Part shown: piece by piece, positions 6,329-29,172 of the stretch | How the letters are laid out: every line of letters starts with the position of its first letter | How positions within the stretch are numbered: position 1 is the stretch's first letter | Assembly: GCA_015067835.1 (NCBI GenBank) | Contig: SVLS01000003.1 | Coordinates: 50,883-114,882 of the forward strand | DNA: 64,000 nt | Origin: Oscillospiraceae bacterium | Lineage (GTDB): Bacteria > Bacillota > Clostridia > Oscillospirales > Oscillospiraceae | Direction: 5' to 3' | Program-made: the position numbers and the translations under genes | The notes under the pieces: generated by a model | Database searches by the model: none | Told to the model about the DNA's origin: nothing | What the model saw: the letters and a program-made list of their open reading frames with translations, nothing else

Positions 6329-6332
6329 ATCG

Positions 6333-7136
6333 TCACCCCTTTAGTGTTTGATGAGCCTGCGCCACAACGGACGCAGTATCCGGGATAATTCCCGGTACAT
6401 TTTCCAAAGTCAAATGTCCTAAAAATTCAATATTCCCCTCCGGACCTTTTACCGGTGAGAAGGTCAGCCCCAGAATGGTAAAGCCCAGCGCTGTTACCGT
6501 TTCCACGAAGCTATCCAGGACCTCCTGATGAATTTCCGGTTCCCGAACAACTCCTTTTTTACCCACCTTTTCCTTGCCGGCCTCAAATTGAGGCTTAATG
6601 AGGCACAGCACCTGTCCTGAAGGCTTCAAAAGTGCCTTGATGGCAGGCAAAACAATTTTTAAGGAGATGAAGCTGACATCAATAACCGAAAGGTCCAGCG
6701 GTTCTCCTAAATCCTCCGGTGTTACATAGCGAATGTTGGTACGCTCCATCACCACAACCCGCTCATCGGAACGAATCTTCCAATCCAGCTGACCGTAGCC
6801 AACATCAATGGCAAAGACCTTCTTTGCCCCCTGCTGAAGCAGACAATCGGTAAATCCACCGGTGGATGCGCCGGAATCACTGCATACGAAGCCCTCCGGG
6901 TTCACGCCAAAATCCCGCAGCGCCTTTTCCAGCTTCAGTCCGCCACGGCTGACATAAGGGCAGGCTGCACCCCGTACCTCTATCTGAACCGTTTCCTCAT
7001 AGGAAACACCCGGTTTATCCGCCTTTTGACCGTTGACATAGACCTGCCCGGCCATAATAATCGCCTGCGCCTTCGCACGGGTCTGCGCAAACATTTGCTC
7101 CACGAGTAAAACATCCAGGCGCTTTTTAATTTTCAC
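6333..7136 (-). CDS. tlyA: TlyA family rRNA 2'-O-methyltransferase
   Basis: 267 aa: N-terminal S4 domain (KKRLDVLLVEQ..., about 1-65) then an FtsJ/RrmJ-type SAM-dependent methyltransferase domain with DSGASTGGFTDC as the SAM-binding loop. The family 2'-O-methylates ribosomal RNA cytidines (known for mycobacterial TlyA); often annotated hemolysin A. The ORF-track start at 7211 lies deep in dxs; the GTG at 7136 is 9 nt after GGAGG and overlaps the dxs end by 11 nt. Confidence 0.93.
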   Translation of the reverse strand: MKIKKRLDVLLVEQMFAQTRAKAQAIIMAGQVYVNGQKADKPGVSYEETVQIEVRGAACPYVSRGGLKLEKALRDFGVNPEGFVCSDSGASTGGFTDCLLQQGAKKVFAIDVGYGQLDWKIRSDERVVVMERTNIRYVTPEDLGEPLDLSVIDVSFISLKIVLPAIKALLKPSGQVLCLIKPQFEAGKEKVGKKGVVREPEIHQEVLDSFVETVTALGFTILGLTFSPVKGPEGNIEFLGHLTLENVPGIIPDTASVVAQAHQTLKG

Positions 7137-9006
7137 TATCAAGCACCTCCGTGATTTTTCTTGCAAGTGCATCGGCATCCAGTCCATAATGCCGGTACAG
7201 CTCCCTGACACTTCCGTGAGTTACAAAATCCGGACCCAAATCCATAGAATGAACCGTCAGATTTCGGTTGTGTTTCGCCAGCTCACAACAAAATGCAGCA
7301 TAAATGCCTGAGCCTGTGCAAGCTTCCTCTGCCAGAATAAAATGCTTACAATCCCCGGCAAGTTCCAGAATCCGCTCCACAGGAAACGCAGAAAGGCAGA
7401 GCAGCTGCAGCACTGTTACCTCAACGCCAAACTGGCTGAGATGGTCTGCGCAGCGAACCGCTTCATTGGTCAGCGTGCCATAGGTTACCAGGACGGCATC
7501 CTTACCTTTCCGGTGGCAGTAAACTGCTCCCTGTGCTGCAAGATTCTGATTCCCGGTAAAATTGGACTCCTGTAAAATGCCATTTCCCCCTCTGGGATAG
7601 CGAATGGCTATCGGCCCATCATAGCTTTCTACTGCCCAGCGAAGCATTGCAGACAGCTCGCTGCAGGTAGCCGGGCACAATACTGTCATTCCGGGAATCT
7701 GACGCAAAAAGCCTACATCGAAAACACCGTGGTGGGTTTCTCCATCCTCACCCACAAGTCCGGCACGGTCGACAGCCAGAACAACATGAAGCTTCAGCAT
7801 TGCAATATCCTGCAAAAGCTGGTCGTAGGAACGCTGTAGAAAGGTAGAATACAAGGCCAAAACGGGCGTCATCCCCTGTTTGGCCAAGCCGCCTGCCATA
7901 GAAGCAGCGTGTTCTTCTGCAATACCGACATCAAACAACCGGTCAGGAAATTGCTCTTTCATTTTCAGCAGACCCGTACCACCGGGCATTGCCGCAGTAA
8001 TGGCGCAAAGGCGGGGATTCGTCTTTGCCAAATCCACCATTGTATCGCCAAAGGCATCGGAAAAAGTGTAAGCTTTGCCCTGAGGCAGCTCGCCGGTATT
8101 GGGGTCAAAGCTTCCGACGCCATGGAATTGAGAAGGTTTTTGCTCCGCCGGCAGATAGCCGTTGCCCTTTTGGGTATAGATATGGAGCAGGGTCGGAGTT
8201 TTCATATCCCTTGCAACCTTCAGCAAACGAACCAGCTCATTTACATCGTGACCGTCCGCCGGTCCCAGGTAAGTAAGACCCATATTTTCAAACATACTGG
8301 TAGGCAGAATAGAGCGTTTTACCCAAGCCTTAAAACGGCTGGTCATACCATAAAACGCTTTACCTCCCGGCACCTTACTTAATGCATCGCGATAACGGCG
8401 CTTCATCCCAAGATAGCGTTCCTTGGTACGCAGGTTGGACAGGTGCTTGGATATACCGCCTACATTGCGGTCAATGGACATCTCATTGTCATTCAAAATG
8501 ATGAGCAAAGGCTCCTTGCTGGCCGCCGCATCATTCATCCCTTCATAAGCCATACCGCCAGTTGCCGCACCGTCACCCAACAATGCAATGACATGGTAAT
8601 TCTCTTTCAAAAGTGTTCTTGCCCGTGCCATTCCAAGGGCAACCGAAACGGAGCTCGATGCGTGACCTGCCACAAAGGCATCTGCATCACTTTCAGATGG
8701 TTTCGGAAATCCGGCGATTCCGCCAAATTGCCGTAAATGCTGAAAATCCGCCTGGCGACCGGTCAGCAGCTTATGCACGTAAGACTGATGACCTACATCG
8801 AACACCAGACGGTCCTTTTGGGTATCAAAAACCGTCTCCAAAGCGACCGTCAGCTCCACAACGCCCAAATTCGACGCCAAATGACCGCCTGTTTTGGAAA
8901 CAGATTCAATTAAAAATTCACGAATTTCACAACACAGCTGGACTCTTTGCTCCTCGTTCAGAGAAAGAAGGTCCTTATGGCCGTTGATATTTTCCAATAT
9001 GCTCAC
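7126..9006 (-). CDS. dxs: 1-deoxy-D-xylulose-5-phosphate synthase
   Basis: First enzyme of the MEP isoprenoid pathway, condensing pyruvate and glyceraldehyde-3-phosphate with thiamine diphosphate. About 626 aa. Seen: KTGGHLASNLG, the TPP-binding GDGAATGGMAYEGMN, VGIAEEHAASMAGG, and DRAGLVGEDGETHHGVFD. The start is uncertain: a TTG at 9018 sits directly on AAGG, whereas the GTG at 9006 gives the family-typical MSILENIN and is preferred. Lies 14 nt or less after oapA. ispE at 23.4-24.3 kb belongs to the same pathway. Confidence 0.96.
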   Translation of the reverse strand: MSILENINGHKDLLSLNEEQRVQLCCEIREFLIESVSKTGGHLASNLGVVELTVALETVFDTQKDRLVFDVGHQSYVHKLLTGRQADFQHLRQFGGIAGFPKPSESDADAFVAGHASSSVSVALGMARARTLLKENYHVIALLGDGAATGGMAYEGMNDAAASKEPLLIILNDNEMSIDRNVGGISKHLSNLRTKERYLGMKRRYRDALSKVPGGKAFYGMTSRFKAWVKRSILPTSMFENMGLTYLGPADGHDVNELVRLLKVARDMKTPTLLHIYTQKGNGYLPAEQKPSQFHGVGSFDPNTGELPQGKAYTFSDAFGDTMVDLAKTNPRLCAITAAMPGGTGLLKMKEQFPDRLFDVGIAEEHAASMAGGLAKQGMTPVLALYSTFLQRSYDQLLQDIAMLKLHVVLAVDRAGLVGEDGETHHGVFDVGFLRQIPGMTVLCPATCSELSAMLRWAVESYDGPIAIRYPRGGNGILQESNFTGNQNLAAQGAVYCHRKGKDAVLVTYGTLTNEAVRCADHLSQFGVEVTVLQLLCLSAFPVERILELAGDCKHFILAEEACTGSGIYAAFCCELAKHNRNLTVHSMDLGPDFVTHGSVRELYRHYGLDADALARKITEVLDSEN

Positions 9007-9020
9007 AACGCGACACAACC

Positions 9021-9617
9021 TTAATTTTTGTTTTTCCTTTTTGTGCCAAAAATAGAACCGATATGACTAATTGCGTAAATCAATCTGCCTGCAAAATGCA
9101 CGATTTTGGTAGAGGAATTCACTGCAAAGCTCTTGCCGATTGCCTTACCGCCGACAGTCAAGCCAGAAACCACCGCCGACATTACAAGGCTTATCAATCT
9201 GGGCCAGGAAAACTCAAAATTCTGAAGAATCTGCGCCGCAATTGTAGCTGATGCCGCACCGGACACAACGCCGCAAATATCGCCCACCACATCGTTACAA
9301 ATCGAGCTGACCCGCTCTGCCCGGCGAAGCAGGCGCAATGCCTCTCTTGCACCCGGCACCTTGCGCGCCGCCATAGAATGAAAAGGGCTGTCATCCGCGG
9401 ATGTTACTGCAACACCAACAACATCGAAAATGATGCCAACGAAAACGATAATCAGCAAAATAGCAAAAGAGGTAATCATACCGCTTTTGCTCATCAGTTC
9501 ATCAGATACCAGCGTAATCAGCGACGTGGTCATCACCGTCACAAGAAATACGGTAATCACCCACCGGATATTCCGGTTGCGCTCCTTTTTTGATTGACTT
9601 GGGTCTGCTTTTGCCAC
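9021..9617 (-). CDS. oapA: OLE-associated membrane protein OapA (DUF21/CNNM-like)
   Basis: 198 aa with three to four hydrophobic segments: about 18-36, 45-70, 110-135 and 140-165. Central residues (VTSADDSPFHSMAARKVPGAREALRL) resemble the DUF21/CNNM membrane domain. It contains a DxxxD motif (NDVVGD). Identification rests mostly on position: it lies directly downstream of the OLE RNA candidate and upstream of dxs, the place of oapA in known OLE-bearing Firmicutes. OapA is known to bind OLE RNA and tether it to the membrane, with a role in stress and Mg2+ tolerance. GTG start, AGGAG 8 nt upstream. Confidence 0.75.
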   Translation of the reverse strand: MAKADPSQSKKERNRNIRWVITVFLVTVMTTSLITLVSDELMSKSGMITSFAILLIIVFVGIIFDVVGVAVTSADDSPFHSMAARKVPGAREALRLLRRAERVSSICNDVVGDICGVVSGAASATIAAQILQNFEFSWPRLISLVMSAVVSGLTVGGKAIGKSFAVNSSTKIVHFAGRLIYAISHIGSIFGTKRKNKN

Positions 9618-9639
9618 AGGAATTTCTCCTTAATTTTTT

Positions 9640-10263
9640 ATAAAAGACGGCGACAAACAGGATAAATCTTACGGCTTAGGTCGGGTTGGATTTCCCCAGA
9701 CAGAACCTGCCGTTGCCGCGCAGGCCGTTTCCGTTTCATCTGTCCGCTTATGCGTTGCCAATCATAAATACCCGATTGCCACTTAGTCCGTACTGTAATC
9801 CCCTGTTTGCCCAGTTACGACAGCCTAGGTGATTTCCACAGCGAAATAAACCATAATCTTAGCCTCTTTTGCAAGTAAGATTTCCAGAGGCAATATCGGT
9901 AGTCACTATGGCCATAGCGACCAACCGCGTGAACCTCTTTCCCAACATACTCACTCAAGGCAGGCTACACTGCACGTAGCAACACGATTCTGCGCACCAC
10001 GCTACAGGTTCATACCAGGCCCGTACGCGAAGGAGGCTTCCCATAAAAGGAGTTCCCATTCTTCGTCGCACAAAACCAGGTCTCCACGGAAACCGGGTCG
10101 TATGCCCCATGCCATTGGAGCGCGCCCGGGATCCTTAACCCCCAGCATCCACCCTAAACTGGGCGTAAAAAGCAGACACCAGGGACTTCATCGATGTGCC
10201 CTTCAAAGGATTTTTAGGCCCTTCCTTGAAAATGGACATTCCGACTAGGATACTGCACCGTCG
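9640..10263 (-). ncRNA. ole: OLE RNA (ornate large extremophilic RNA)
   Basis: A gap of about 720 bases with no ORF on either strand holds GC-rich, structured sequence in a locally AT-rich frame. It has a consensus promoter at its 5' end and leads straight into oapA-dxs-tlyA-nadK-argR-recN, the operon setting established for OLE RNA (about 610 nt). The length from inferred start to the oapA ribosome binding site is about 620 nt. Local stems are visible, for example CCGAC/GTCGG at the 5' end and GTCACTATGG/CCATAGCGAC at 9901-9920. Family membership is inferred from length, position and partner gene; I could not run a covariance search. It lacks the tmRNA ends and the RNase P signature. Confidence 0.8.
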
Positions 10264-10269
10264 GGTTAG

Positions 10270-10298
10270 ATTTTAGCATACTTTTTGTGAATATACAA
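10270..10298 (-). promoter_or_regulatory. Promoter of OLE RNA-oapA-dxs operon
   Basis: Minus-strand -35 TTGTAT (10293-10298), 17-bp spacer, extended -10 TGCTAAAAT (TAAAAT at 10270-10275). Start predicted near 10263. The flanks are very AT-rich. Confidence 0.75.
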
Positions 10299-10339
10299 GT
10301 ATTTTTTCATAAAATACGGTTTTATTTATAAAACATTCA

Positions 10340-10822
10340 TTATTTTGGATATTCATTCCCTTTTATGAACCAATCCTCAACAATGTCACTATGGGTAACA
10401 ACGATGGAAATCTCCTGCAGCTGCTCTGCTGTAAACCAATGCAGCTGCTTTGATTCCTTGCTGATTTTCAGCTGCGTTGATTCCGGCAGCTCCAGTAAAT
10501 AAGCAACAATCACCATCCGCCAAATGCTGCCGTCCCGGTATGCGGCAATCCGCCCCGGTTCTCCATAGACTGCCAGCTTACGGAATTTTTCCTTTGCAAC
10601 GCGGATACCCAGCTCTTCCCGGACTTCTCTGGCAATGGCATCAAGTGGTTCTTCCCATTTTTTGACTCCGCCGCCAATCAGTCCCCAGGTATCAGAATCC
10701 CGGCGCTTTTCCAGCAGGATTTTATTGCCGTCCACAATGATTGCATTGGCACCCAAATGAGCAGGCATCGTGGTCTTGGGTGCATTGGGATCATTTCGAT
10801 AAAATGTCACAATCGGTTTCAT
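10340..10822 (-). CDS. NUDIX hydrolase
   Basis: About 160 aa with a full Nudix box GGGVKKWEEPLDAIAREVREELGI (Gx5Ex7REUxEExGU) near the middle. The family hydrolyses nucleoside diphosphates linked to another moiety; the substrate is not predictable here, though pairing with a Y-family polymerase hints at nucleotide pool cleaning. The reading frame also allows an ATG at 10855 overlapping the dinB stop; the ATG at 10822 follows GAGGG and is preferred. Confidence 0.88.
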   Translation of the reverse strand: MKPIVTFYRNDPNAPKTTMPAHLGANAIIVDGNKILLEKRRDSDTWGLIGGGVKKWEEPLDAIAREVREELGIRVAKEKFRKLAVYGEPGRIAAYRDGSIWRMVIVAYLLELPESTQLKISKESKQLHWFTAEQLQEISIVVTHSDIVEDWFIKGNEYPK

Positions 10823-10844
10823 TGCATCTTTTGCCCTCATTTCA

Positions 10845-12122
10845 CTAAAATTCATCCGGTACAGGCTTGGTCACACCGGTGCGACGCGCCTTATCAAGGC
10901 CGCCGGTCATGTGGCCCTGGGCATCCTTGGCAAACTTTGCCCGGCGAATGACATCTTCCCCATATTTGTCCCGGAGGGCATCCACCGTTTCGTCCAGCCG
11001 CAGCTTCTTTTCATACTGCTCCGGGGTCACACCGGAAAACAGATCAAACTGCTGATAAGGCTCTGCTGTGATTTTCGTCATCTGCACACCGATTTGCCGT
11101 AAGGGTGTCACACCATCCCACGCTTCATCAAATATCCGGCAGGCTTCCTTGAAAATCTGACCGGTAATATTGGTGGCTCCGTTCAGCTGAGATTGATGGG
11201 AAAAGTGGCAAAAATCGTTGGTGCGCAAATGAACTGCAATGCAGCCACCGCATTTTCCATCCCGGCGCATCCGCATTCCTACCGTCTCACAAAGCCCCAA
11301 CAGCACCTGGTACCCTTGCTCCGCTGTTACAACATCAGAGGAAGTGGTAACGGAGTTTCCGTAACCCTTATTTTCTGCCGGCTCCGGTGTCACTGCATCT
11401 GCGTTGCGCCCATTGGCAAAATGCCAAATGGTCTCCCCGTGCTTTCCCAGCCGGCGGCGAATCAGGTTCAAATCTGCCCGTGCCAAATCTCCCACAGTAT
11501 AAATGCCCATCAGCTTCAGCTTCCGCTCTGTGGCCGCACCTACCAAAAACAAATCCCGAACCGGCAACGGAAAAAATTTCTTCTCCATCTCCTCCGGGAA
11601 AAGCGTATGAACCTTGTTGGGCTTTTCAAAATCTCCTGCCATTTTTGCCAGCAGCTTATTGCTGGAAATGCCGATATTGACCGTAAAGCCCAATTCCTCC
11701 CAGATTCTTTTACGCATCTGCTCCGCCGCAGTCAAGGGGCTTCCCCACAATCGCTGTGTGCCGCTCATATCCACCCAGGCTTCATCGATGGAATATTGCT
11801 CTACCTTCGGGCTGAACTGCCGGAGCATTTCTACAAAATGCCGGGAGGCCTCCACATACAGCTCATAATCCGGAGGGATTACCACCAAATCCGGACATTT
11901 TTCCAACGCCTGAAAGAGCGGCTCTCCTGTTTGAATGCCATATTTTTTTGCAGGACCGCTTTTCGCCAGGACAATGCCATGGCGAGAGGCCTTCTCCCCG
12001 GCTACAACCGACGGTATTTCCCGCAGGTCTATCTTCTCCCCCAGCACCTTTAACCGATAGGCTGCTGACCAGCTCAGAAAAGCCGAGTTGGCATCAATAT
12101 GAAATATAATCCGCTCACTCAT
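10845..12122 (-). CDS. dinB: DNA polymerase IV, Y family (DinB)
   Basis: 425 aa translesion polymerase. The N-terminal palm motif is FHIDANSAFLSWSA, the second catalytic motif is YSIDEAWVDMSG, and helix-hairpin-helix and little-finger regions follow (DLARADLNLIRRRLGKHG). The start is the ATG at 12122 after AGGAAGG, overlapping the stop of the upstream small ORF as TGATG. This gives the order hypothetical-dinB-NUDIX in one leftward operon. No LexA/DinR box was recognised in the promoter. Confidence 0.93.
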   Translation of the reverse strand: MSERIIFHIDANSAFLSWSAAYRLKVLGEKIDLREIPSVVAGEKASRHGIVLAKSGPAKKYGIQTGEPLFQALEKCPDLVVIPPDYELYVEASRHFVEMLRQFSPKVEQYSIDEAWVDMSGTQRLWGSPLTAAEQMRKRIWEELGFTVNIGISSNKLLAKMAGDFEKPNKVHTLFPEEMEKKFFPLPVRDLFLVGAATERKLKLMGIYTVGDLARADLNLIRRRLGKHGETIWHFANGRNADAVTPEPAENKGYGNSVTTSSDVVTAEQGYQVLLGLCETVGMRMRRDGKCGGCIAVHLRTNDFCHFSHQSQLNGATNITGQIFKEACRIFDEAWDGVTPLRQIGVQMTKITAEPYQQFDLFSGVTPEQYEKKLRLDETVDALRDKYGEDVIRRAKFAKDAQGHMTGGLDKARRTGVTKPVPDEF

Positions 12123-18900: not shown

Positions 18901-19416
18901 AATGGCATCATCATTGCGCCCCCAGCCCTGACTGTCAATAAATGCATAAAAGTCCAAATCCTCAGACTGGGTGTACGCCTCCTCCAGGCATTGATTCAGG
19001 CAGGCATCTCTTAAAATGGCACATTCATTTTCATCTGCCACACGAAAATCTGCCGGCAAATCCACCTGATAGGCATATTCCCGTAAAACATCTGCGCAAA
19101 AGGAATGGACTGTGGATATTTTTGCAAGGTACAGCCGCTGCATCTGCCGATGCAGATGGCGATTTTCCGGGAACTGTGCCATCAGCTCGGAAAGCTTGTT
19201 GGAAATTTTGGTTCGCAATTCCGATGCCGCAGCCTTGGTAAAGGTAATAATCAAAAAGTCATCCAGGTTTGCCGGATTTTCCGGGTCAAGAACATAGCTC
19301 ATCAGGCGGTCAACCAGCACCTTTGTCTTGCCGGAGCCGGCAGCGGCGGAAACCAGCAATCTGCCGCCACGGTCATATACAGCGTCGCGCTGTTGAAGTG
19401 TCAGTTCTTCAGCCAT
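15910..19416 (-). CDS. addA: ATP-dependent helicase/nuclease subunit A (AddA)
   Basis: 1168 aa, usual length. UvrD-type helicase: Walker A SAAAGSGKT near residue 22, VDEYQDSN near 390, GDVKQSIYQFRQADP, and MTIHKSKGLEYPVVF near 750. The C-terminal RecB-type nuclease shows GVVDCAMVDEDGIVVIDFKTD. With AddB it resects double-strand breaks for RecA loading, replacing RecBCD in Firmicutes. The ATG at 19416 follows GGAGG and overlaps the addB stop by 8 nt. Confidence 0.97.
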   Translation of the reverse strand: MAEELTLQQRDAVYDRGGRLLVSAAAGSGKTKVLVDRLMSYVLDPENPANLDDFLIITFTKAAASELRTKISNKLSELMAQFPENRHLHRQMQRLYLAKISTVHSFCADVLREYAYQVDLPADFRVADENECAILRDACLNQCLEEAYTQSEDLDFYAFIDSQGWGRNDDAIVPLLLKVYDNARCSLNPREWFQNCIDRTQTSGVNDMGQTPWGEYLIDNLQRYLSLQIKTYEKLAQAADEGGLSNPATLFRSIAVSLQYLQEARTWDEVVERKKIDFGRLNFPRKNVDEQLIESLRTTHKFCKDMLTERLKVFTEKSEVLFEDIQQTQAATRGLIKLLESFDRAYTAAKRRMRMVDFNDLEHYTLDLLLGKSRSGPTAAAKEISNRFREIMVDEYQDSNATQDAIYMTLTEARQNCFMVGDVKQSIYQFRQADPGIFLKKYNEYLPVKQAVSPQSRKVTLSSNFRSGGGVLAGANDVFSYCMSTDVGGLIYGKEEALEEGTPHESIGEPEVELWAIETENGAYVDEAAFVAQRIRELTDGTHLVRSKTGLRPIELGDIAILLRTKSNVAVHYKKALEQRGIPCTSEGGEDILQTQEGQLLHAILQVISNPRQDIPLLAVLASPIFCVSADELAQIRSENRYGCIYDAIQSSSNPKILEFLRCLSVWRRDARLQPLAKLVESIFAMTRMDSIFAAMPNGFERQENLQTFYEQAVSYEKIGRRDLEQFLQHLQGFGKKGMVPLKEQSGGNSVTIMTIHKSKGLEYPVVFVSDLAHTFSSQSTTGAFLCDKDLGLGMTTIDHKNRVRYPSFAKNAVAAKIDVDGLSESIRVLYVALTRARDRLIMTYGAKKLKESISELAARMSLVEREQLIQDVSCLGDWVMMAALQRTEAGEFLALCDTTPQTHVGEHPWKIGLVRQAEYGNSQMEASVTPEIPKEYIEKMQAGLSFVYGHQAATLVASKQTATQRKGRQKDAEAQEDAVSNEAFRPTWRKPTFSKQKQDGAAAGTATHAVMQYIRYDCCTDEQGVQKEVQRLIQEHFLTVEQGEMVDCRKIAAFFNTELGKRLQKHKDVLREFKFTVLENAEAYDDALAGEEILLQGVVDCAMVDEDGIVVIDFKTDYVTQGNLADKVTHYRPQILAYAQAMSQIYQRPVKEAWLYFFGNNQAVAVQ

Positions 19417-22400
19417 TGCGGTTTACCTCCTTTTCTACATCTGCCCAAAATTCCTGCGCAGAAATTGTCTTATAATCCCGGCGCTCCGGCACATCTTTCT
19501 GATGGCAAATGCTTCCATAGGGGCAATATCTGCAGGCATTGTGACTGCTGCCGCGGGTATAGGGATTGGCTTGCACGCTTCCTGCGGCAATTTCGTCAAT
19601 CATATTGCGCAGCAATGCAAAGATGTATTGCTCAAGTAGCTCAAACTGACCGCTGTCTGCCAAATCGCCGCTCAGCTCCCCATCCGGTGACAGCTTACAG
19701 CACACACGGTACATATTTTCGCCGGGGTTCATCGCTTCAATGACTTGTGCATTATTTAACAGCAATCCGCTTCGCTTCCAATTTGCTCTGCGCTTTAAAT
19801 CCGCCTTTTCCTTAGCAAGACAGCTATCTGCAGAAATAACTGGCGATCCGGCGGTAAAATACTGAACACCCGCCGCAACAGGGCTATTACCCACCACTTT
19901 CTCTCCATTTCTGCGCAATGCGAAAAGATACAGAAGCATTTGCAGACCAACGCCGTTATAAATATCACAATAGTCCAGAGACTTTTTTCCCGTCTTGTAG
20001 TCAACAACGCGGAAATAATGCTTTCCGCCCTGCTCCCAAATATCCATACGGTCCACTTTACCACGCAGGAAGGTGGGAATTGCCGCACCGTCAATGGATA
20101 TGGCCGGCATATCGCCGTCTTCGTTGCTGAAATTAAGCTCAAAGGCTTCCGGACGGAACTTGGCATCCTTTAATTCACACCACAGCTCCTCCAGAATCAA
20201 CACAAGCTCATTCCAGTTCCGTTCGAACAGATAGCTAACCCGCTGAGAATCTACCTGACTGAAGCGCTGACCGGCATAAGCCTCGGACTCTTTCTTTGCA
20301 ATCTCCAATGTCTCTTCCAACGACACGGTTTCAAAGCCGCCGCGAGCCATTACTTCTTTGGCAGTATGCTCCAAAACATCGTGGACATAAGTACCGAATT
20401 CTGCCGCATCGATGGTGATTTCCTTCCGTTCCTTCGCGCGCAGACCATATTTCAGGAAATAGGACAGTCGGCACTCGGCAAATTGATTAATTTGAGAAGC
20501 AGAAAGATTCAACTGACTTCCATACAGCTTTTTGACCGCATCTTCAGACACCTTTCCCACAGAATACTCCATTCTGTTTTTGGTGTCATAGTACCACTTT
20601 TCAACACCAAGCGCCTTCGCAGTTTTGACATCCTGCCAACGGGCCAAATAAGCACCGCTTTCCCGCATATCCACGCCTGCCGCACCAAGCGATTCCTTTA
20701 TGGTCTGCTCACCACCGGCAACCTTCGCAATACGGCGATAGAGGTAAGACCCCTCTCCACCGGGGTAGGAAATATATACGGATTCCGTCGCACCGCAGAA
20801 AAGGCCGTAAATTTCAGCAAATTCTGCCTGCAAGCCTTCCATTGCGCCGCCGGTCAGAGGTACGCCCATTTGACGCAGTGCCACTCGCTCCTGGTCGGTC
20901 AACAGCCCTTTGGAGCCGCCATAGCCGGGCAATGCACCCTCCGATGCGCCCAATACCAGCAAATGCTTTGCCTCCTGACAGCGCATTGCGCTGACAGAGC
21001 CAAATGTAACCGCATCCAAAGCCGGTGGAATTGTCCCCACCTGATACTGCGCCAGAAGAATGGTCAAAAGGCGGATGAACATCTCCGGCTCCCAAACTGT
21101 CTGACCCAGCATATCATACATCTGCTCCAGCGCAGACAAAAGAATTTCCCAAATCTGATTGAGAATTTGAACCTCTCTCAGCTGTCCGGCTTCCTCCATT
21201 TGAGCAGACAGCTTCTCCAGCTTCTCTACAAAGGAAATCTCTTCCAGGAAATCATAAAGTGCCTGCACCTGCTGGCTGAGATTTGTTGCCCTTTTGAAAT
21301 TCTGCTGCAGCTTTGCCAAGGGAGAAATCGCCATCTGCCGCGCCTCATTCAGCGTTTCCAGTAATTTCGTTGCCTGGTCGTTCCAATCCTTCCCCAAGCC
21401 CTCCGGATGCCCATCCCAGCTCTTCAGGAAGCCATTGTAGCGAATGCCCCAGGTAATGACATAATTTTCCACCTGGTCGCAGGTATCCGTATCCAACGGA
21501 GAGAGAAGGGATTTTAGGTAGCGCAGTACCGCAGACTGCTCGAAGCCGCCCAAGGCCGCATCCAGCGCGGACAGCACCGTAGAAATCACTGTTTTCTGCA
21601 GAATGTCCTCTCTTCCCGATTGATACAGCGGGATTCCGTACCGGCGGAAATTCAATTCCATCACGCTCTGGTACTGGTTCATATCTGCACACACAATGCT
21701 GATATCCCGGTATCTGCAGCCACTTTGCACCAGCTCCATCACACGGTCTGCGGCAGACAGCACCTCCACATGGATAGAATCTGCGCAAACTGCACGAACA
21801 CGGTTATGCAGCTCTTCCGACTCCGGCAATTTTCCCTGAAACAAAGAATCGTACAGCAACATCATTGCATCTGTTCGGCTTTCCACCGCCTCAATTTCCA
21901 CAGGAATTCCGGCATTTTTAGCGCAACGAAGCAGCTGCTTTGCTGTATCACCTGCCTTTTCAAAGGCCAGGTTATCCGTTTCGATGCTGTCGCAGTTCAT
22001 GCTGATCGTAACCGAGGGTGACTCTTTGATTAAATGCTCCAGAATTGCCAAATGCTGGCGGGTAAAATCCGGGAAGCCGTCGATGTAAAAGGTATGCTCC
22101 CGGGCGAAGGAATCCTCCTCCAGCTGCTCCAAACACCAGGTCATCTGGTCCCGCGGGTCACGGCGACCTTGGGCGCAAATGGCATCATAGGCATCCAGAA
22201 TCAAAGCCAGCTCCTCCAGCTTAACCGACAAGGTGCCATCGGTCATTTTGGACGCTGCCATCAAATCCTGGGATGTGATGCAGCAGCGTTTGAACTCGTC
22301 AACTGCATCCACCAGCTCCTTCAGAAACTCCGGCTTTGTTTCAACCGATGCATAGGCCTTGATTTTGCTATGTAATTGATGGGTCGCAGCTGCCATGGCA

Positions 22401-22672
22401 ATCATCCGGCCGCCATTATCCAGACAAGAAGCTGCCGTATTTCCAACCCGGGCTGCCACACGGGTCGCCAGGCGGGGAAAAGACAGCACCTCCGCATAGC
22501 GGCTTACTGTATTGCCTGCTGCTTTGCAAAGTCTGCGTTCTACATCATAGCTAATCAGCTCCGGGACAATCAAAACTCTTCCCGGCAGTCCGTTTGCCAC
22601 ATCTGAAGCGATGCAGGACAGTATTTTATTACGACCGGCAATCCAGTCTTTGGAAAGCAAAAGACGCAGCAT
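19409..22672 (-). CDS. addB: ATP-dependent helicase/nuclease subunit B (AddB)
   Basis: 1087 aa. N-terminal helicase-like part without a clear Walker A; C-terminal nuclease motif LRGKVDRMDIW...FRVVDYKTGKKSL; iron-sulfur Cys set formed by FAECRLSYF and ACRYCPYGSICH. Acts with AddA, contributing the second nuclease and Chi recognition in known systems. The start was moved from 22720 to the ATG at 22672 (MLRLLLSKDW), 7 nt after GGAGGG. A TGCTATAAT extended -10 lies at 22700-22708 on the minus strand. Confidence 0.96.
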   Translation of the reverse strand: MLRLLLSKDWIAGRNKILSCIASDVANGLPGRVLIVPELISYDVERRLCKAAGNTVSRYAEVLSFPRLATRVAARVGNTAASCLDNGGRMIAMAAATHQLHSKIKAYASVETKPEFLKELVDAVDEFKRCCITSQDLMAASKMTDGTLSVKLEELALILDAYDAICAQGRRDPRDQMTWCLEQLEEDSFAREHTFYIDGFPDFTRQHLAILEHLIKESPSVTISMNCDSIETDNLAFEKAGDTAKQLLRCAKNAGIPVEIEAVESRTDAMMLLYDSLFQGKLPESEELHNRVRAVCADSIHVEVLSAADRVMELVQSGCRYRDISIVCADMNQYQSVMELNFRRYGIPLYQSGREDILQKTVISTVLSALDAALGGFEQSAVLRYLKSLLSPLDTDTCDQVENYVITWGIRYNGFLKSWDGHPEGLGKDWNDQATKLLETLNEARQMAISPLAKLQQNFKRATNLSQQVQALYDFLEEISFVEKLEKLSAQMEEAGQLREVQILNQIWEILLSALEQMYDMLGQTVWEPEMFIRLLTILLAQYQVGTIPPALDAVTFGSVSAMRCQEAKHLLVLGASEGALPGYGGSKGLLTDQERVALRQMGVPLTGGAMEGLQAEFAEIYGLFCGATESVYISYPGGEGSYLYRRIAKVAGGEQTIKESLGAAGVDMRESGAYLARWQDVKTAKALGVEKWYYDTKNRMEYSVGKVSEDAVKKLYGSQLNLSASQINQFAECRLSYFLKYGLRAKERKEITIDAAEFGTYVHDVLEHTAKEVMARGGFETVSLEETLEIAKKESEAYAGQRFSQVDSQRVSYLFERNWNELVLILEELWCELKDAKFRPEAFELNFSNEDGDMPAISIDGAAIPTFLRGKVDRMDIWEQGGKHYFRVVDYKTGKKSLDYCDIYNGVGLQMLLYLFALRRNGEKVVGNSPVAAGVQYFTAGSPVISADSCLAKEKADLKRRANWKRSGLLLNNAQVIEAMNPGENMYRVCCKLSPDGELSGDLADSGQFELLEQYIFALLRNMIDEIAAGSVQANPYTRGSSHNACRYCPYGSICHQKDVPERRDYKTISAQEFWADVEKEVNRNG

Positions 22673-22723
22673 TGCATTCCCTCCTTTTATGTTTGACTTA
22701 TTATAGCATATTAATTGCAAAAA

Positions 22724-22749
22724 GGACAGGCTTTTTTCAAAGCCTGTCC
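22724..22749 (-). terminator. Rho-independent terminator of spoIIR
   Basis: Minus-strand GGACAGGCTTT/AAAGCCTGTCC stem followed by TTTTT. Confidence 0.85.
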
Positions 22750-22756
22750 ATATTAT

Positions 22757-23368
22757 TTATCCTGCGTAAAACAGGTTCTCAATCCACCCCAGACAGTCCA
22801 TCACAAAAAACCGGGCGCGGTATGGGGGTTCGTCTGTTAAAGCTCCTGTCAGGGAGTCTCCAAAGCCGGCACCGGCTGCAGTATCTTCAAATGCCTCCGT
22901 CGTTGCACCGAAGCACAGCCCGGGAAAAACAACACACCACCAGTTTTTCCCTTCCCCACTGCCGATGGTAATGCGCAGGGATTCATAAATACCGGACGGG
23001 AGAGAGAAAGTGTCATACTTCCGAGCCGGAAAGGCTTCCTTGGCAAAACTCACAACTGCCTTGCAGCCTTGCCCCGCCTTTTCCAAAACCTCATTGGCAA
23101 TCCGCTCCAGCTCCGGGAGCTGCGCCTGGATATATTCCCTGGCAGATTCCATATCGGGAAGGCTGTTTACCGCACTTTGAAGCTTATTCAGCACTGCGTC
23201 TCTTACCTGAAGCTTGATGCTTTGAGCCTCTTCAGAATCAGAATCCGCAACCACATGCAAGCGTATGACACTGTTTTGCAGCGCTCTTATATCCGCCGTT
23301 ACACTTCCAAGCCAGAATGCCGCCACAATCAACAGCAATGTACAAACGAATTTCAAAAACTTCTTCAT
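22757..23368 (-). CDS. spoIIR: Stage II sporulation protein R
   Basis: 203 aa secreted forespore signal that triggers SpoIIGA processing of pro-sigma-E in the mother cell. N-terminal signal/anchor (MKKFLKFVCTLLLIVAAFWLG), conserved IRLHVVADSDSEEAQSIKLQVRDAV, and IGSGEGKNWWCVVFPGLC near residue 150, all family hallmarks. The ORF track starts four codons earlier at 23380. A sigma-F-like promoter lies upstream, fitting the known control of spoIIR. Confidence 0.95.
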   Translation of the reverse strand: MKKFLKFVCTLLLIVAAFWLGSVTADIRALQNSVIRLHVVADSDSEEAQSIKLQVRDAVLNKLQSAVNSLPDMESAREYIQAQLPELERIANEVLEKAGQGCKAVVSFAKEAFPARKYDTFSLPSGIYESLRITIGSGEGKNWWCVVFPGLCFGATTEAFEDTAAGAGFGDSLTGALTDEPPYRARFFVMDCLGWIENLFYAG

Positions 23369-23398
23369 AAAAAACACCATCCATACCGGTTATACTAC

Positions 23399-23428
23399 CA
23401 GTATGGACGGTTTCAGTCAAAATGATAC
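23399..23428 (-). promoter_or_regulatory. Sigma-F-like promoter of spoIIR
   Basis: Minus strand: -35 GTATC (23424-23428; consensus GYATA), 15-bp spacer, -10 GTCCATACTG (23399-23408; consensus GGnnAnAHTR with one mismatch). The -35 overlaps the 3' end of ispE. Confidence 0.55.
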
Positions 23429-24283
23429 AGGTTTGGCAATAAATACTTGCGGATAGTTTTCTTTCAGCATCTGACAAATCACAGCAGCGTACTCAAATTC
23501 CGGAGTAATACAGAATACTGCTGAGCCGGAGCCGGTCATTTGCTGACCGATAGAGCCGTATGCATTGAAAATGGATTTGATATAATTCAGTTCCAGATGC
23601 TCAGCCGTCACCACCGGGTCAAATACATTGTACAAATTCTGGGCAATTTCCGGTAAGTTACCGGTGACAATTGCTTTTTCCATCAAAAGATGCTCCGGAC
23701 GCTTGCCGATGGGAGTTTCGTCAAGTTTTGCATATAATACCGGTGTTGATACGGAGAAATCCGGCTTGCACACCACAAAAATACAATCCGGCATATCCGG
23801 CAATTTCCGCAGTTTTTCACCCCTGCCTTCCACGAGAGCAGTCCCCCCTATGACGCAGAAAGGCACATCGCTTCCCACCAAGCTGCCCAATTCCGCCAAT
23901 GCTGCAACAGAAAGCGGTGAACCGTAATGACGGTTCAAAGCACGGAGCACAGCTGCCGCATCCGCACTGCCGCCACCCATACCGGCCTCGCTGGGAATTC
24001 GCTTTGTAATGCGAATTTCGATGCCGTTGGGGTCGATTTTAACAGTCTCAAAAAAGACCTTTGCCGCCTTCCATGCAAGATTGCGCTCATCACAGGGAAT
24101 ATCATCCCGGTCGCAATGCAGACACCAGGGCTTACCTGTCTCCACATCGATTTCCACATCATCCCGCACAGAAATCGTCTGCATCACGCTTTTCAGGTCG
24201 TGATAGCCGTCCGGGCGCTTGCCCAGAACATCCATTGTCAAATTCAGTTTTGCGTATGCACCTTCATACAGCGTCGTCATCAT
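23417..24283 (-). CDS. ispE: 4-diphosphocytidyl-2-C-methyl-D-erythritol kinase
   Basis: MEP pathway kinase of the GHMP superfamily, 288 aa. Seen: AYAKLNLTMDVLGKRPDGYHDL at the N-terminus, the ATP loop PSEAGMGGGSADAAA near 100, and MTGSGSAVFC near 260. The ORF-track start at 24313 is too long; tandem ATGs at 24283/24280 follow AGGAG. Supplies the same pathway as dxs at 7-9 kb but is separately placed beside spoIIR. Confidence 0.95.
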   Translation of the reverse strand: MMTTLYEGAYAKLNLTMDVLGKRPDGYHDLKSVMQTISVRDDVEIDVETGKPWCLHCDRDDIPCDERNLAWKAAKVFFETVKIDPNGIEIRITKRIPSEAGMGGGSADAAAVLRALNRHYGSPLSVAALAELGSLVGSDVPFCVIGGTALVEGRGEKLRKLPDMPDCIFVVCKPDFSVSTPVLYAKLDETPIGKRPEHLLMEKAIVTGNLPEIAQNLYNVFDPVVTAEHLELNYIKSIFNAYGSIGQQMTGSGSAVFCITPEFEYAAVICQMLKENYPQVFIAKPVSF

Positions 24284-24410
24284 CAGCGCTCCTTTAACCG
24301 TTATGCCAGCCATTATAACGAATTTTTATCTGTTTTTCAAGAGGATGAATATTTTGCATTTCAATGGGGATTCTATAAACAGCCACAAAATGGAATGGAG
24401 GTAACACATA

Positions 24411-24656: not shown

Positions 24657-25889
24657 TCATTCGCCAGCTTTCACATAGACCACGCAGGAATATGTAGCTC
24701 CCTCATATTCGGTAGAAACGATAACCTTGGTCAGCTTGGAAACGGTACCGCCGGTAATCTTGCTGCCGTTAATCTCTACGATACCGTCAATATCGGCTTT
24801 CCATTCCACGCCCTGTGCCTTTGCCTCGGTTTCCTTGTGCATCAGGTACAGGAAGAAGGTTTCACCCTTTGCGATTGTAACATCTGTTTTGCTAATCTTG
24901 TAATCTGTTGGCTCTGTGGGAGGCGCGGCATCAAAGGCACAAATAACCTTACAGGTTGCAGTCTGGTCACCAATGGTAGCTGTAATCATTGCTACACCGC
25001 GGTCAACGCCAACAACCTTACCGTTTTCAACAGTCGCAATGCTGGGATCAGATGTGGTCCAGGTAATATCCTCCGGCTTGATGCCAAGGGTTTCCGTGTA
25101 AAGCGTTGCTCTGCCGCCCTCTGTTGCAATGGTAATCTCGCCACTGTCCTTATAGGTCTTCAGCTTCAGGATAAAGCCAGCAGGAAGACTGGGTTCCGGA
25201 ACAGAAGGTGCAGGAGGTGTTCCCACCTTGGAATCCACCGGACACATTGCCACCACCGTGCCGCAAGTTGCGGTGATTGTGGTCTGACCGTAGCCAACAC
25301 CAACAACCAGACCGTTGGCATCAACTGTAGCAACCTCAGGGTTCTGAGAAGTGTAAATCACAGTCTTATTGGTGGTGTTCTCAGGCTCAATGACAGCATC
25401 CAGCTGGAACTGGGGTGCTGCAGCAGTCAGTTCAATAAAGCTGGCATTCAGCTTCACACCTGTGCAGAGAATCGTATCTCCTCCGGTAGGATTGTTCGGG
25501 TCATCAGAAGGTGTCGTCTGGCCTGTTGGCTCACTTGCAGGTGCACTGCTTTGTATCCACTTCACACCAACATAAATGCCTACTGCAACAATCGCCAGCA
25601 GCAGAATCACCACTACGGCAATCAAAACCATATTGTTCTCTTTGGGAACGTCATTGCGCTTCTGATTGGAATTGCGCTCAGATGCTCTGCTCTGGGTTGC
25701 ACGCTCTACATTGCTCTTTGCAAACCGACCGCCCTTTGCATACTGACCGGCCGTTGTCCGCTCCCGCTCAGGCGCTTCATCGCCGATAACGGTCTTCGCA
25801 TCTGCCACCGGTGCACAACCGCAAATCGGACAATTTGTTGCTGTATCGGGAAAGGAAGTTCCGCAAACATCACAAATAATTTTACTCAT
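24657..25889 (-). CDS. Zinc-ribbon, transmembrane, Big2-repeat surface protein
   Basis: 410 aa. N-terminal zinc ribbon (CDVCGTSFPDTATNCPICGC, residues 6-25), a charged stretch, one membrane helix (about 85-108), a Ser/Pro/Thr linker, then two to three bacterial Ig-like (Big2) units at about 140-220, 225-305 and 310-410. Cues are repeated NPEVATVDANGLVVGVGYGQTTITAT-like segments. Predicted topology: zinc ribbon in the cytoplasm, Ig-like domains outside. Start at the ATG 25889 after GGAGG, not 25979. Divergent from the pseudokinase gene with 230 bp between, so a shared surface role is possible but unproven. Confidence 0.8.
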   Translation of the reverse strand: MSKIICDVCGTSFPDTATNCPICGCAPVADAKTVIGDEAPERERTTAGQYAKGGRFAKSNVERATQSRASERNSNQKRNDVPKENNMVLIAVVVILLLAIVAVGIYVGVKWIQSSAPASEPTGQTTPSDDPNNPTGGDTILCTGVKLNASFIELTAAAPQFQLDAVIEPENTTNKTVIYTSQNPEVATVDANGLVVGVGYGQTTITATCGTVVAMCPVDSKVGTPPAPSVPEPSLPAGFILKLKTYKDSGEITIATEGGRATLYTETLGIKPEDITWTTSDPSIATVENGKVVGVDRGVAMITATIGDQTATCKVICAFDAAPPTEPTDYKISKTDVTIAKGETFFLYLMHKETEAKAQGVEWKADIDGIVEINGSKITGGTVSKLTKVIVSTEYEGATYSCVVYVKAGE

Positions 25890-25938: not shown

Positions 25939-25967
25939 ATTATATCATAAGATAAGCTTGATTGCAA
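25939..25967 (-). promoter_or_regulatory. SigA promoter of the Big2 protein
   Basis: -35 TTGCAA (25962-25967), 17-bp spacer, -10 TATAAT (25939-25944), minus strand. An inverted repeat AAGGTCCGGACT lies between promoter and gene. Confidence 0.75.
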
Positions 25968-26120
25968 GTATCCTTTCAAGCCATCCGTGACGAATAAAAG
26001 ATGAATTTGTCAAAAATCAATAACCATTTCCGGAAAAAACCTGATAAATATGGTTGCTTTTTTGTCAAAGATAAATTAAAATATATTTTAAGCAATGTTC
26101 AAAGGAAAGAGGCGATTATT

Positions 26121-29100
26121 ATGTCAGCACCCCAGTTGATTTCTCCGATGCTGGATGGCTTTGTGATGGGCGACCCCATCAGCGACCACGATGGCGTGCG
26201 TTCCTGCCCCGCAATGCATCTGGAATCCGAACAGAAATACATTGTAAAAATCATCTCCCTGCCGGCTTCTCAGTCCAAAATTGATGCACTGCTTTTAGCC
26301 GGTGCATTTAATGACAAGGAATCCGCTTTGTCCTATTTTAAGGACTTGGCTGATGATGTTTTAGAGGAAGCTGAATTACTGCAAAAGCTTTCCCGGTACG
26401 AGGGCTTTGTTGCATTTGAAAACTGGCAGATTGTTCCAATGACCGACGATGAAACAGGCTTTGATATTTATCTCCTCAGCCCCTATCAGCCGACTTTGGA
26501 AGCCCTGCTGAAAAGCAATGAAATGACCCATTTGAACGCGGTTAATCTGGGTCTTGACCTGTGTGCAGCATTGTCTGTCGCCCGCCGGTCCGGGTATCTT
26601 TACAGTAACCTGCGGCCTTCCAATGTTTACATCTGCAACGAGCGGGAATTCCGCATTGGCGATTTGGGCTTTATCAGCCTTCCCTCTTTACCCTATGCAT
26701 CCTTACCGGACAAGTATCGCAGTGATTATACTCCGCCGGAAATTTCCGATGCTTATTCCGCGCTGAACAGCACAATGGATACCTACGCGGTCGGTCTGAT
26801 TCTTTATCAGGCTTACAACGGCGGCAAGCTTCCCCCTGTGGGTTATGGGATGGAAGCTCCCTGTTATGCTGACAGCGAGCTGTCTCAGATTATTTTGAAA
26901 GCCTGCTCTGCCGACCCGGCCGAGCGTTGGCAGGATCCTGTGCAAATGGGGCAGGCTTTGGCAAATTATTTGCAAAGCAATACCGTCAATGATACGCCCA
27001 TCATCCCTGTTGTGGTGGAAGAAGAGCCTGTCATGGCGGTTGCCGAGGAGCAGGCGCAGAGCGACGAACCCACAACAGAGGATATTCTCGCTGAGGTGGA
27101 CGAAGCTCTGGAAGCTGCACCGGTTATTATCCCCACGGCAGAAAGTGAGCCTGTTGAGGAAGAAGTGGCCGAGGCGGAAGCCGAAGAACCGGAAGTTGCA
27201 GAAGACTCCTCCGCAGCAGAGGTTGCAGTTACAGATGAGGACGAGATTGTCGTCGCAGCTGTCACAGAAGAAGCGGAAGAAGCTGTAGAAGCCGAAGAAG
27301 TATCCGAAGAGGAAGAACCTGAGACTACATCCGCTGAAGAAACTGTCGAAGCCGAAAATGCAGAGGAGACTGAAGAAGCGCATGACGAAACTGCGCAGAT
27401 TCTGGCACAGGCAGACGATTTAATCGCCCATCAGCTCCCTGACCCGGTGGTTGCCCCGGAGGAAATTGAGGTCAGTCTCCCTACCCCTGAGGCAGAAGCA
27501 GAGCCCGAGGAAGAACCGAGTGTTGAGGTTGAGGAAGTTGCAGAAGACACTGCTGCTGCGGAGGATACAATCGAGGAAGAAGCTTCCGAAGAGGAGGATG
27601 AGGAAGACGCTCTTCTTGCCAAGCGCCAGAAGCGTCTGAAGATTTTTGGAATTGTTGCCGCAATCGTCCTGTTCCTGGGTGTTGCCGGATACCTGTTCTA
27701 TCAGCACTTTTATACACAAACCATCCACGCCATTGTTTTGAAGGGTACAGAGGATAAACTGACCGTTTCCATCGCAACAGAAATCCCCAATGAAAAGCTC
27801 TCTGTAAAATGTACGGATACTCACGGCAATGCATTGACGGAGGATGTAAAAAATGGCGTCGCCCATTTTGTTGGTCTGAAGCCCGGCACTTCCTATAAGG
27901 TAGAGGTGCGAATTGACGGCTTCCACAGATTGGTGGGCGAAACAACCAAAAACTATACTACAGTTTCTCAAACGGTTATCGGCGGATTTTATGCCGCCAC
28001 CGGCACGGAAGAAAGCTCTGTCATACTCAGCTTTACCGTGCAGGGACCGGACAGTCCTCAATGGACAGTTACATACAGCGCAGAAGATGAAGAGGAAAAA
28101 TCCATCACCTTTGGCGGTCACATGGTAACCATCAACGGCTTAACCACCGGCAAAGAGTACACCTTCAAGCTGCAGCCCTATACAACGCTGTATCTGTCCG
28201 GAACGGATACTGTAACTTATGTTCCAAAGGCTCTGGTATACGCAGAGCAGCTGCAGTTGGTCAGCTTCCTCAATCAGCAGCTGACTGTCAGCTGGGCAAC
28301 CCCGGAAGGCATCACCGTTCCAAAATGGTACATCCGTTGTTCCAACGATGCAGGCTTCGACCAAACCCTCAGCACCACAGAGAATTCCATCGTTTTTGAA
28401 GGTTTGGATGCAAATGGCGGCTACAATATCGAAGTCACCGCAGAGGGTATGACCCTTGGCGTGCGCACCTTCCTTTCTCCCAATTCCATTCATATTACGC
28501 AGATTGAGACAGACGACTCTGACCGGAATAATCTTGTTGTAAAATGGAGCTTTGAAGGTGACGCTCCTGCAGATGGCTGGCTGCTGATGTACAGTCTGGA
28601 CGGCAGTTCTGACCGGCAGGTTATCCGCTGCACGGAGGCAACCGGTACGATTACGCCCCTGATTCCCGGCGCAAAGTACACCATCGCTGTTCAGCCCACT
28701 GATGGGACGACCGCTTTCAACGGCACACTGGAATATCAGTCCCCTGCCCCGACCATTTTTAACAGCTATGAGATCAGTGCAGACGATATGGAATTTGATA
28801 TGTGTCTGACACCCAATGTAACAAATTGGGATCGGTACGATGTCAAGCAGTACACCCAGTCCTTTAAGGTTGGTGCAAGTGCTTCCTTCGTGATGCACGT
28901 CACAAAGAGAACCTCCCAGACCAGCGACAAAGTGGTTACCCTTTATGTTATTCGGGATGCACAAGGAAATGTGGTCAGCAGCAAATATGAGTCCCGCTCC
29001 TGGGATGATATGTGGCTGAACCGCTACGGAAAATTGACCATCCCGGTTATGCCTGAAGAGCCCGGTACTTATTCCGTTTCTGTTTATTTCAACGGTGCCG

Positions 29101-29135
29101 CTGTCACCAAGCAGAATTTCACCGTTACCGCTTAA
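26121..29135 (+). CDS. Membrane pseudokinase with fibronectin III-like ectodomain
   Basis: 1004 aa from the ATG at 26121 (AAAGAGG upstream; the track adds 40 residues). Order: protein-kinase-like domain (about 1-290), a very acidic Glu/Ala-rich linker (about 293-500), one membrane helix (about 510-532), then about four fibronectin III-like repeats to the end. In the kinase domain the beta-3 Lys is kept (YIVKII) and DFG reads DLG. The HRDxKPxN loop reads YSNLRPSN, so the catalytic Asp is Asn, which suggests no phosphotransfer. Likely a cytoplasmic sensor or scaffold coupled to an extracellular binding region; ligand unknown. Confidence 0.82.
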   Translation: MSAPQLISPMLDGFVMGDPISDHDGVRSCPAMHLESEQKYIVKIISLPASQSKIDALLLAGAFNDKESALSYFKDLADDVLEEAELLQKLSRYEGFVAFENWQIVPMTDDETGFDIYLLSPYQPTLEALLKSNEMTHLNAVNLGLDLCAALSVARRSGYLYSNLRPSNVYICNEREFRIGDLGFISLPSLPYASLPDKYRSDYTPPEISDAYSALNSTMDTYAVGLILYQAYNGGKLPPVGYGMEAPCYADSELSQIILKACSADPAERWQDPVQMGQALANYLQSNTVNDTPIIPVVVEEEPVMAVAEEQAQSDEPTTEDILAEVDEALEAAPVIIPTAESEPVEEEVAEAEAEEPEVAEDSSAAEVAVTDEDEIVVAAVTEEAEEAVEAEEVSEEEEPETTSAEETVEAENAEETEEAHDETAQILAQADDLIAHQLPDPVVAPEEIEVSLPTPEAEAEPEEEPSVEVEEVAEDTAAAEDTIEEEASEEEDEEDALLAKRQKRLKIFGIVAAIVLFLGVAGYLFYQHFYTQTIHAIVLKGTEDKLTVSIATEIPNEKLSVKCTDTHGNALTEDVKNGVAHFVGLKPGTSYKVEVRIDGFHRLVGETTKNYTTVSQTVIGGFYAATGTEESSVILSFTVQGPDSPQWTVTYSAEDEEEKSITFGGHMVTINGLTTGKEYTFKLQPYTTLYLSGTDTVTYVPKALVYAEQLQLVSFLNQQLTVSWATPEGITVPKWYIRCSNDAGFDQTLSTTENSIVFEGLDANGGYNIEVTAEGMTLGVRTFLSPNSIHITQIETDDSDRNNLVVKWSFEGDAPADGWLLMYSLDGSSDRQVIRCTEATGTITPLIPGAKYTIAVQPTDGTTAFNGTLEYQSPAPTIFNSYEISADDMEFDMCLTPNVTNWDRYDVKQYTQSFKVGASASFVMHVTKRTSQTSDKVVTLYVIRDAQGNVVSSKYESRSWDDMWLNRYGKLTIPVMPEEPGTYSVSVYFNGAAVTKQNFTVTA

Positions 29136-29144
29136 TAAAAAAGT

Positions 29145-29172
29145 ACGTCCACCGGATTTTTCCGGTGGACGT
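29145..29172. terminator. Bidirectional terminator
   Basis: ACGTCCACCGGA-TTTT-TCCGGTGGACGT perfect 12-bp stem with flanking A and T runs, between convergent genes. Confidence 0.92.

Follow-up and report, generated by a model that had tools for sequence, protein, structure and literature searches.

Membrane Ser/Thr kinases of the PknB/PrkC/Stk1 type, i.e. the PASTA kinases, consist of an N-terminal cytoplasmic kinase domain, a single transmembrane (TM) helix and a repeat ectodomain. The receptor-like protein described here, which is encoded in a 64,000-nucleotide stretch of Oscillospiraceae DNA (the window), has the same general order of domains, and PknB is its best match in both structural and profile comparisons. 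It differs from the PASTA kinases in that it carries an array of FN3-like domains without PASTA, its glycine loop is degenerate and its catalytic Asp is replaced; its genome encodes separate PASTA kinases. The PASTA-kinase equivalog NF033483 gave 37.6 bits against a cut-off of 450, no PASTA match was found in the profile searches, and the NCBIfam matches to MADS6 and MacP were far under cut-off.

Several groups of bacterial pseudokinases are outlined in PMC12599244. EssB/YukC of the T7SSb is, like the receptor, a pseudokinase of Firmicutes that crosses the membrane once; its role is non-catalytic, and it is a precedent for such a protein serving a structural purpose. However, all three catalytic motifs of EssB/YukC are degraded and it serves secretion, whereas the receptor keeps the Lys and the DFG Asp. 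ActPs2 shares the Asp-to-Asn replacement in the HRD motif with the receptor but, as described there, also has a Lys-to-Arg replacement and a DFG deletion. The DYD group has Lys-to-Arg and lacks the alpha-C Glu, whereas the receptor family conserves K43 and E83; the CP1 pseudokinases are described without TM segments, whereas the receptor has one; and DLHK, in which the ATP- and metal-binding motifs are degraded and the HRD Asp is kept, is unlike the receptor family. Families of mixed activity are known from the same source, i.e. about 40% of the CP1 and 60% of the DYD members are pseudokinases.

In terms of the active site, the receptor resembles HER3 and JAK2 JH2, which have Asn for the catalytic Asp and keep the Lys, the catalytic-loop Asn, the DFG Asp and ATP binding; HER3 is a receptor too (PMC4718504). 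These proteins are eukaryotic, their ectodomains are unrelated, and the available part of that source describes no alternation of Asp, Asn, Ala and Gly among orthologues. The nearest parallel for the latter is vertebrate PSKH2, where one and the same orthologous gene has HRD or HRN depending on the species, and His in whales (PMC9988210, PMC7586955). The PSKH2 change is recent, in primates, whereas the bacterial family described here shows about twenty losses, with Asn, Ala or Gly as the new residue. The literature searches turned up no description of a kinase with the layout of the receptor. The family is apparently an unnamed variant of bacterial pseudokinase, set apart from ActPs2, DYD and CP1 as these are described in PMC12599244, and it may already bear a name.

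Domain layout and active site of the receptor

The features of the locus are collected in Table 1. The start codon of the receptor gene at 26121 is favoured over an upstream ATG at 26001 by the ribosome binding site AAAGAGG (26106-26112). The promoter candidates, TTGCAA-17-TATAAT (25967-25939, minus strand) and TTGTCA-16-TATTTT (26062-26089, plus strand), are consensus matches only. The gene is probably transcribed alone, since it is followed by a strong terminator-like hairpin.

Table 1. Positions of the genes, domains and key codons of the receptor locus, numbered from the first letter of the window
Feature	Position	Strand	Remarks
Receptor (pseudo)kinase gene, 1004 aa	26121..29135	+	ORF; about 20 genera have orthologues (790-1130 aa)
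Kinase-like domain, residues 1-290	26121..26990	+	Pfam, family profile, Foldseek, alignment
ATP-binding Lys43 codon	26247..26249	+	Lys in 97/97 genus sequences with a letter there
Asn163 codon, replaces HRD catalytic Asp (YSNLRPSN)	26607..26609	+	Alignment
DFG Asp181 codon (GDLGF)	26661..26663	+	Alignment
Cytoplasmic linker, residues 291-507 (217 aa)	26991..27641	+	38% Asp/Glu, net charge -77
Single TM helix, residues 508-526, preceded by RQKRLK	27642..27698	+	
Ectodomain, residues 527-1004 (478 aa)	27699..29132	+	Four FN3-like domains and a C-terminal beta sandwich
Intrinsic-terminator-like hairpin 3' of receptor gene	29145..29172	+	12 pairs
Divergent promoter region	25939..26089	.	Consensus matches only
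Divergent partner gene, 410 aa	24657..25889	-	Zinc ribbon, basic cytoplasmic segment, one TM helix, Big_2 domains
Partner zinc ribbon (CxxC/CPxC)	25821..25874	-	C6, C9, C20 and C23 invariant in 34 sequences
Small DUF378 membrane protein gene, 67 aa	24411..24614	+	Convergent with partner; 6.5e-28

The initial annotation, made from the letters alone, had described a membrane pseudokinase with an acidic linker of roughly 200 residues and an FN3-like ectodomain, and the general layout was borne out. The ectodomain is about 480 aa long in most orthologues. Its structural model is of good quality (mean pLDDT 89.6) with fibronectin as the best match (4.8e-16), and the Pfam fn3 match of the receptor has an E value of 4.5e-18. 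The acidic linker is real in this protein but it is not conserved, i.e. the orthologous linkers range from 60 to 304 aa in length and from -87 to +6 in net charge, and we rejected it as a defining feature of the family. Residue 991 of the ectodomain (29091-29093) is a second alignment column occupied nearly exclusively by Asn and Asp (29 N, 15 D, 1 A), likely a beta turn; two-state Asp/Asn positions thus arise for structural reasons too.

The kinase homology of the N-terminal domain is firm. Taken alone, the receptor reaches 28.9 bits (E 9e-7) with Pfam Pkinase, which is under the cut-off of 31.7. A family profile of 43 sequences, on the other hand, matches PknB structures in the PDB at 2.9e-24, and an orthologue from another genus (L075) gives 76.6 bits with Pkinase (2.7e-21). 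A Foldseek search with the AlphaFold2 model of the kinase-like domain, the check proposed in the initial annotation, returned kinases with PknB on top (E 6.6e-11). Since the C-lobe of this model is of low confidence (mean pLDDT 57.7, pTM 0.43), the assignment of the fold leans on the profile, the Pfam score of the orthologue and the Foldseek result jointly. The domain belongs to the eukaryotic-like protein kinase superfamily.

The residues K43, E83 (alpha-C Glu), N168 (catalytic-loop Asn), D181 and E207 are all present, so that the ATP-binding Lys and the DFG Asp are retained as first annotated, and the Asn annotated at the position of the catalytic Asp in HRD is N163. In the alignment the HRD position reads YSN and the glycine loop is degenerate. 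Most members of the family likewise have a degenerate glycine loop and lack the HRD Arg; L075 and L076 keep both the GxGxxG loop and the catalytic Asp. In the wider family Lys43 is kept in every sequence but L079, which has Arg. By the usual sequence definition, i.e. the loss of the beta3 Lys, the HRD Asp or the DFG Asp, the receptor is a pseudokinase. It may well bind ATP, which is less than certain because of the degenerate glycine loop.

Repeated loss of the catalytic Asp under purifying selection

A true orthologue of the receptor was found in 45 of the 301 genomes sampled from the family, nearly always in a single copy and in about 20 of the 106 genera. In its own genus 89 of 101 genomes, and 27 of the 28 of high quality, carry the gene, which makes it a core gene of this genus of gut Oscillospiraceae. 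Among 394 genomes sampled from the order, the ectodomain profile detected the receptor in none outside the family, so it looks lineage-restricted. The named records among the orthologue matches are Oscillospiraceae metagenome assemblies, some of them marked "Lapin" or goat rectum.

The identity of the catalytic residue was mapped on a tree of 54 family sequences that was built without the column of this position. The residue is Asp in 26, Asn in 27 and Gly in one of the sequences, and 13 changes are needed, 9-10 of which are forced by well-supported branches. Among 98 members of the receptor's own genus the counts are 71 Asp, 13 Asn, 9 Ala and 5 Gly, with at least 12 changes from Asp, 10 of them forced in the same sense. 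As the two counts share about two events, the losses add up to roughly twenty or more, and well-supported branches within the genus by itself account for at least 10. Of the 11 genera represented by at least two sequences, eight contain more than one state of this residue. In other words, this is one mostly single-copy orthologous family which loses its catalytic Asp repeatedly. From the first 54 orthologues it appeared that only Asp or Asn was tolerated; this idea was rejected as a sampling effect because Ala and Gly occur in the more densely sampled genus.

The clade of the window receptor (L015, L014, L005 and L006), in which the residue is Asn, is the sister of L123, its nearest Asp-bearing relative, at 74% identity. 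The initial annotation had proposed to check whether the Asn is conserved across orthologues, and it is not, i.e. close relatives keep Asp and others have Ala or Gly. It had named Asp-bearing orthologues as evidence against its reading, and these do exist; the term pseudokinase is apt for the clade of the window and for many others, but not for the family as a whole.

The loss of the Asp leaves the rest of the domain strongly preserved. K43, N168, E207 (the APE Glu) and D220 (the F-helix Asp) are nearly invariant in Asp and non-Asp members alike, both in the family and in the genus, and in nine supported independent Asp/Asn contrasts there was no consistent accompanying change at H161, R162 or K165. 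The DFG Asp is missing only where the catalytic Asp is also lost (L061, L068 and L079; L160-L162), a pattern of three or four events only that suggests an order of loss.

Selection was estimated as dN/dS for pairs of orthologues, not all of which are independent. In the genus, the kinase domains of non-Asp pairs gave 0.028-0.107 and those of Asp pairs 0.041-0.148, and the values of other Asn pairs were 0.06-0.15. The ectodomain gave 0.18-0.49 where dS was unsaturated, which excludes the pair of the window receptor and L014, and the kinase domain was lower in every such case. The kinase domain is thus as constrained in the Asn, Ala and Gly lineages as in the Asp lineages, which is not a picture of decay; the equally low values indicate that selection maintains the domain after catalysis should have vanished. 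This bears on the reading that the protein serves as a surface adhesin or in a structural role and that its kinase part is a decaying, functionless remnant. Such a reading would agree with the FN3 ectodomain and with the Pkinase score under the Pfam cut-off, but it is hardly credible, as no part of the protein is more constrained than the kinase domain (0.03-0.15 against 0.18-0.49 at unsaturated dS) and the non-Asp lineages are no more relaxed than the Asp lineages; we rejected a vestigial kinase domain on these grounds.

The opposite view is that the receptor is still a kinase, i.e. that a target is phosphorylated by the Asp members, and that the Asn form either has a weak activity that suffices or is deamidated to Asp. 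HRN pseudokinases can retain traces of activity, HER3 and JAK2 JH2 with their Asn being weakly active (PMC4718504), deamidation has been speculated for PSKH2 (PMC9988210, PMC7586955), and K43, E83, N168 and D181 are all in place here. We regard this as distinctly improbable, since close relatives have Ala (9) or Gly (5) at the position, residues that can neither serve as a base nor become Asp, and since the domains with Ala and Gly are under equally strong selection. The same residues led us to reject deamidation as a general explanation.

The whole family might also be inactive, the Asp forms included, so that Asp, Asn, Ala and Gly would be nearly neutral in a nucleotide-binding or scaffold domain. 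This agrees with the degenerate glycine loop, with the absence of the HRD Arg in most members and with the repeated changes of the catalytic residue with nothing else altered, and there is a precedent in PSKH2, whose natural HRD and HRN variants are both inactive (PMC9988210). On the 54-sequence tree, moreover, a model with reversion is better than irreversible loss (2dlnL 11.8), which tree error could explain; a regain of Asp from Asn is conceivable and the changes may possibly run in both directions. However, 71 of 98 genus members and roughly half of the sequences from the wider family have Asp, a larger share than free drift would leave, and members such as L075 and L076 retain the GxGxxG loop together with the Asp. 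We consider a wholly inactive family unlikely on balance.

Studies of the passage from kinase to pseudokinase mostly rely on single, ancient events. In this family there are about twenty parallel losses, many of them at short distance and with Asp-bearing close orthologues for contrast. With an ATP site that is otherwise intact and a conserved partner, the need for catalysis, the role of the ATP site and the reversibility of the loss become directly testable.

The divergent partner and a proposed mode of action

The divergent neighbour was annotated as a protein with a cytoplasmic zinc ribbon, one helix and Ig-like domains outside, which agrees with the CxxC/CPxC motif, the TM helix and the Big_2 domains found here. 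In about 18 genera, most receptor loci have a divergent neighbour of this type next to the receptor gene. At more than 230 bits, the partner profile matched 40 of the 45 genomes with the receptor and 2 of the 256 others, and the suggested co-occurrence of the two genes is thus confirmed; in four of the five genomes with the receptor only, the partner is represented by fragments or by partial matches, and of the two matches without a receptor one is at the start of a contig. Six genomes (G242, G012, G180, G125, G033 and G096) have the partner on another contig or 40 kb off; some of these cases may be contig breaks, though not G033, where both genes are on one contig. Within the genus the partner is also absent from 11 of the 12 genomes without the receptor, most of which are incomplete assemblies in which the joint absence of two adjacent genes is not independent. 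The association is real on the genomic evidence, and the two proteins make up an apparently undescribed envelope system, for which the idea of a sensing pair is plausible.

A GG[RK][FY]S motif conserved in the partner was considered as a candidate substrate site that would track the receptor Asp; only 2 independent pairs were available for the comparison. Shorter zinc-ribbon/TM/Big_2 proteins (about 320-430 aa; L103-L112) occur in genomes without the receptor; the possibility that they stand beside another kinase was rejected, as none was nearby in the 10 loci inspected.

We infer that the receptor binds ATP without catalysis, senses a ligand, contacts the partner and passes on an output, so that shape and binding, not the addition of phosphate, are probably its means of signalling. 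The FN3 array would bind an envelope or surface ligand outside the cell; the inner kinase-like domain would bind ATP/Mg and act as a conformational or docking module that depends on nucleotide and ligand; and the receptor would work jointly with the divergently encoded partner, with its zinc ribbon inside and its Big_2 domains outside. One possible route of output would be control of the active Ser/Thr kinases of the genome. Both HER3 and JAK2 JH2 carry this Asp-to-Asn replacement, bind ATP and work as allosteric proteins (PMC4718504). Overall, a single-pass envelope receptor that works with the zinc-ribbon partner through ATP-dependent conformation or docking, phosphotransfer not being obligatory, is the reading that we favour with a little more confidence than doubt. 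The Asp-type orthologues may be active kinases, and the ancestral output could have been phosphorylation. More tentatively, and with somewhat more doubt than confidence, catalysis could be an evolvable switch, i.e. orthologous receptors would shift between kinase and pseudokinase while the ATP site, the ectodomain and the partner stay fixed; the conserved output would then be conformational and phosphotransfer an optional addition.

The receptor could instead be an allosteric subunit of the canonical HRD kinases of its genome, as HER3 is with EGFR. The kinases in question, on contig 11, are its closest paralogues in the genome, and the ectodomain of one of them has PASTA and Big_2 domains; their contig is not that of the receptor, however, and we give this arrangement little credence. 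Two canonical HRD kinase genes are adjacent on contig 11 (L113), at 5835-8261 (809 aa) and 8249-11779 (1177 aa; PASTA, Flg_new and Big_2).

Among the genes near the receptor are addB, spoIIR, ispE, DUF378 and a PerM-like gene; T7SS genes were not seen in this neighbourhood. The DUF378 gene recurs at the receptor locus in several genera; an apparent conserved ORF beyond the partner was rejected as a gene, being antisense to it. addB, spoIIR and ispE lie beside the pair at 19409-24313 (minus strand), and ispE and spoIIR are near the receptor in several other genera as well. In two loci of one genus (L067:5825-8649 and L082:3071-5956) the receptor is followed, as judged by eye, by an apparent MBOAT acyltransferase gene and a companion.
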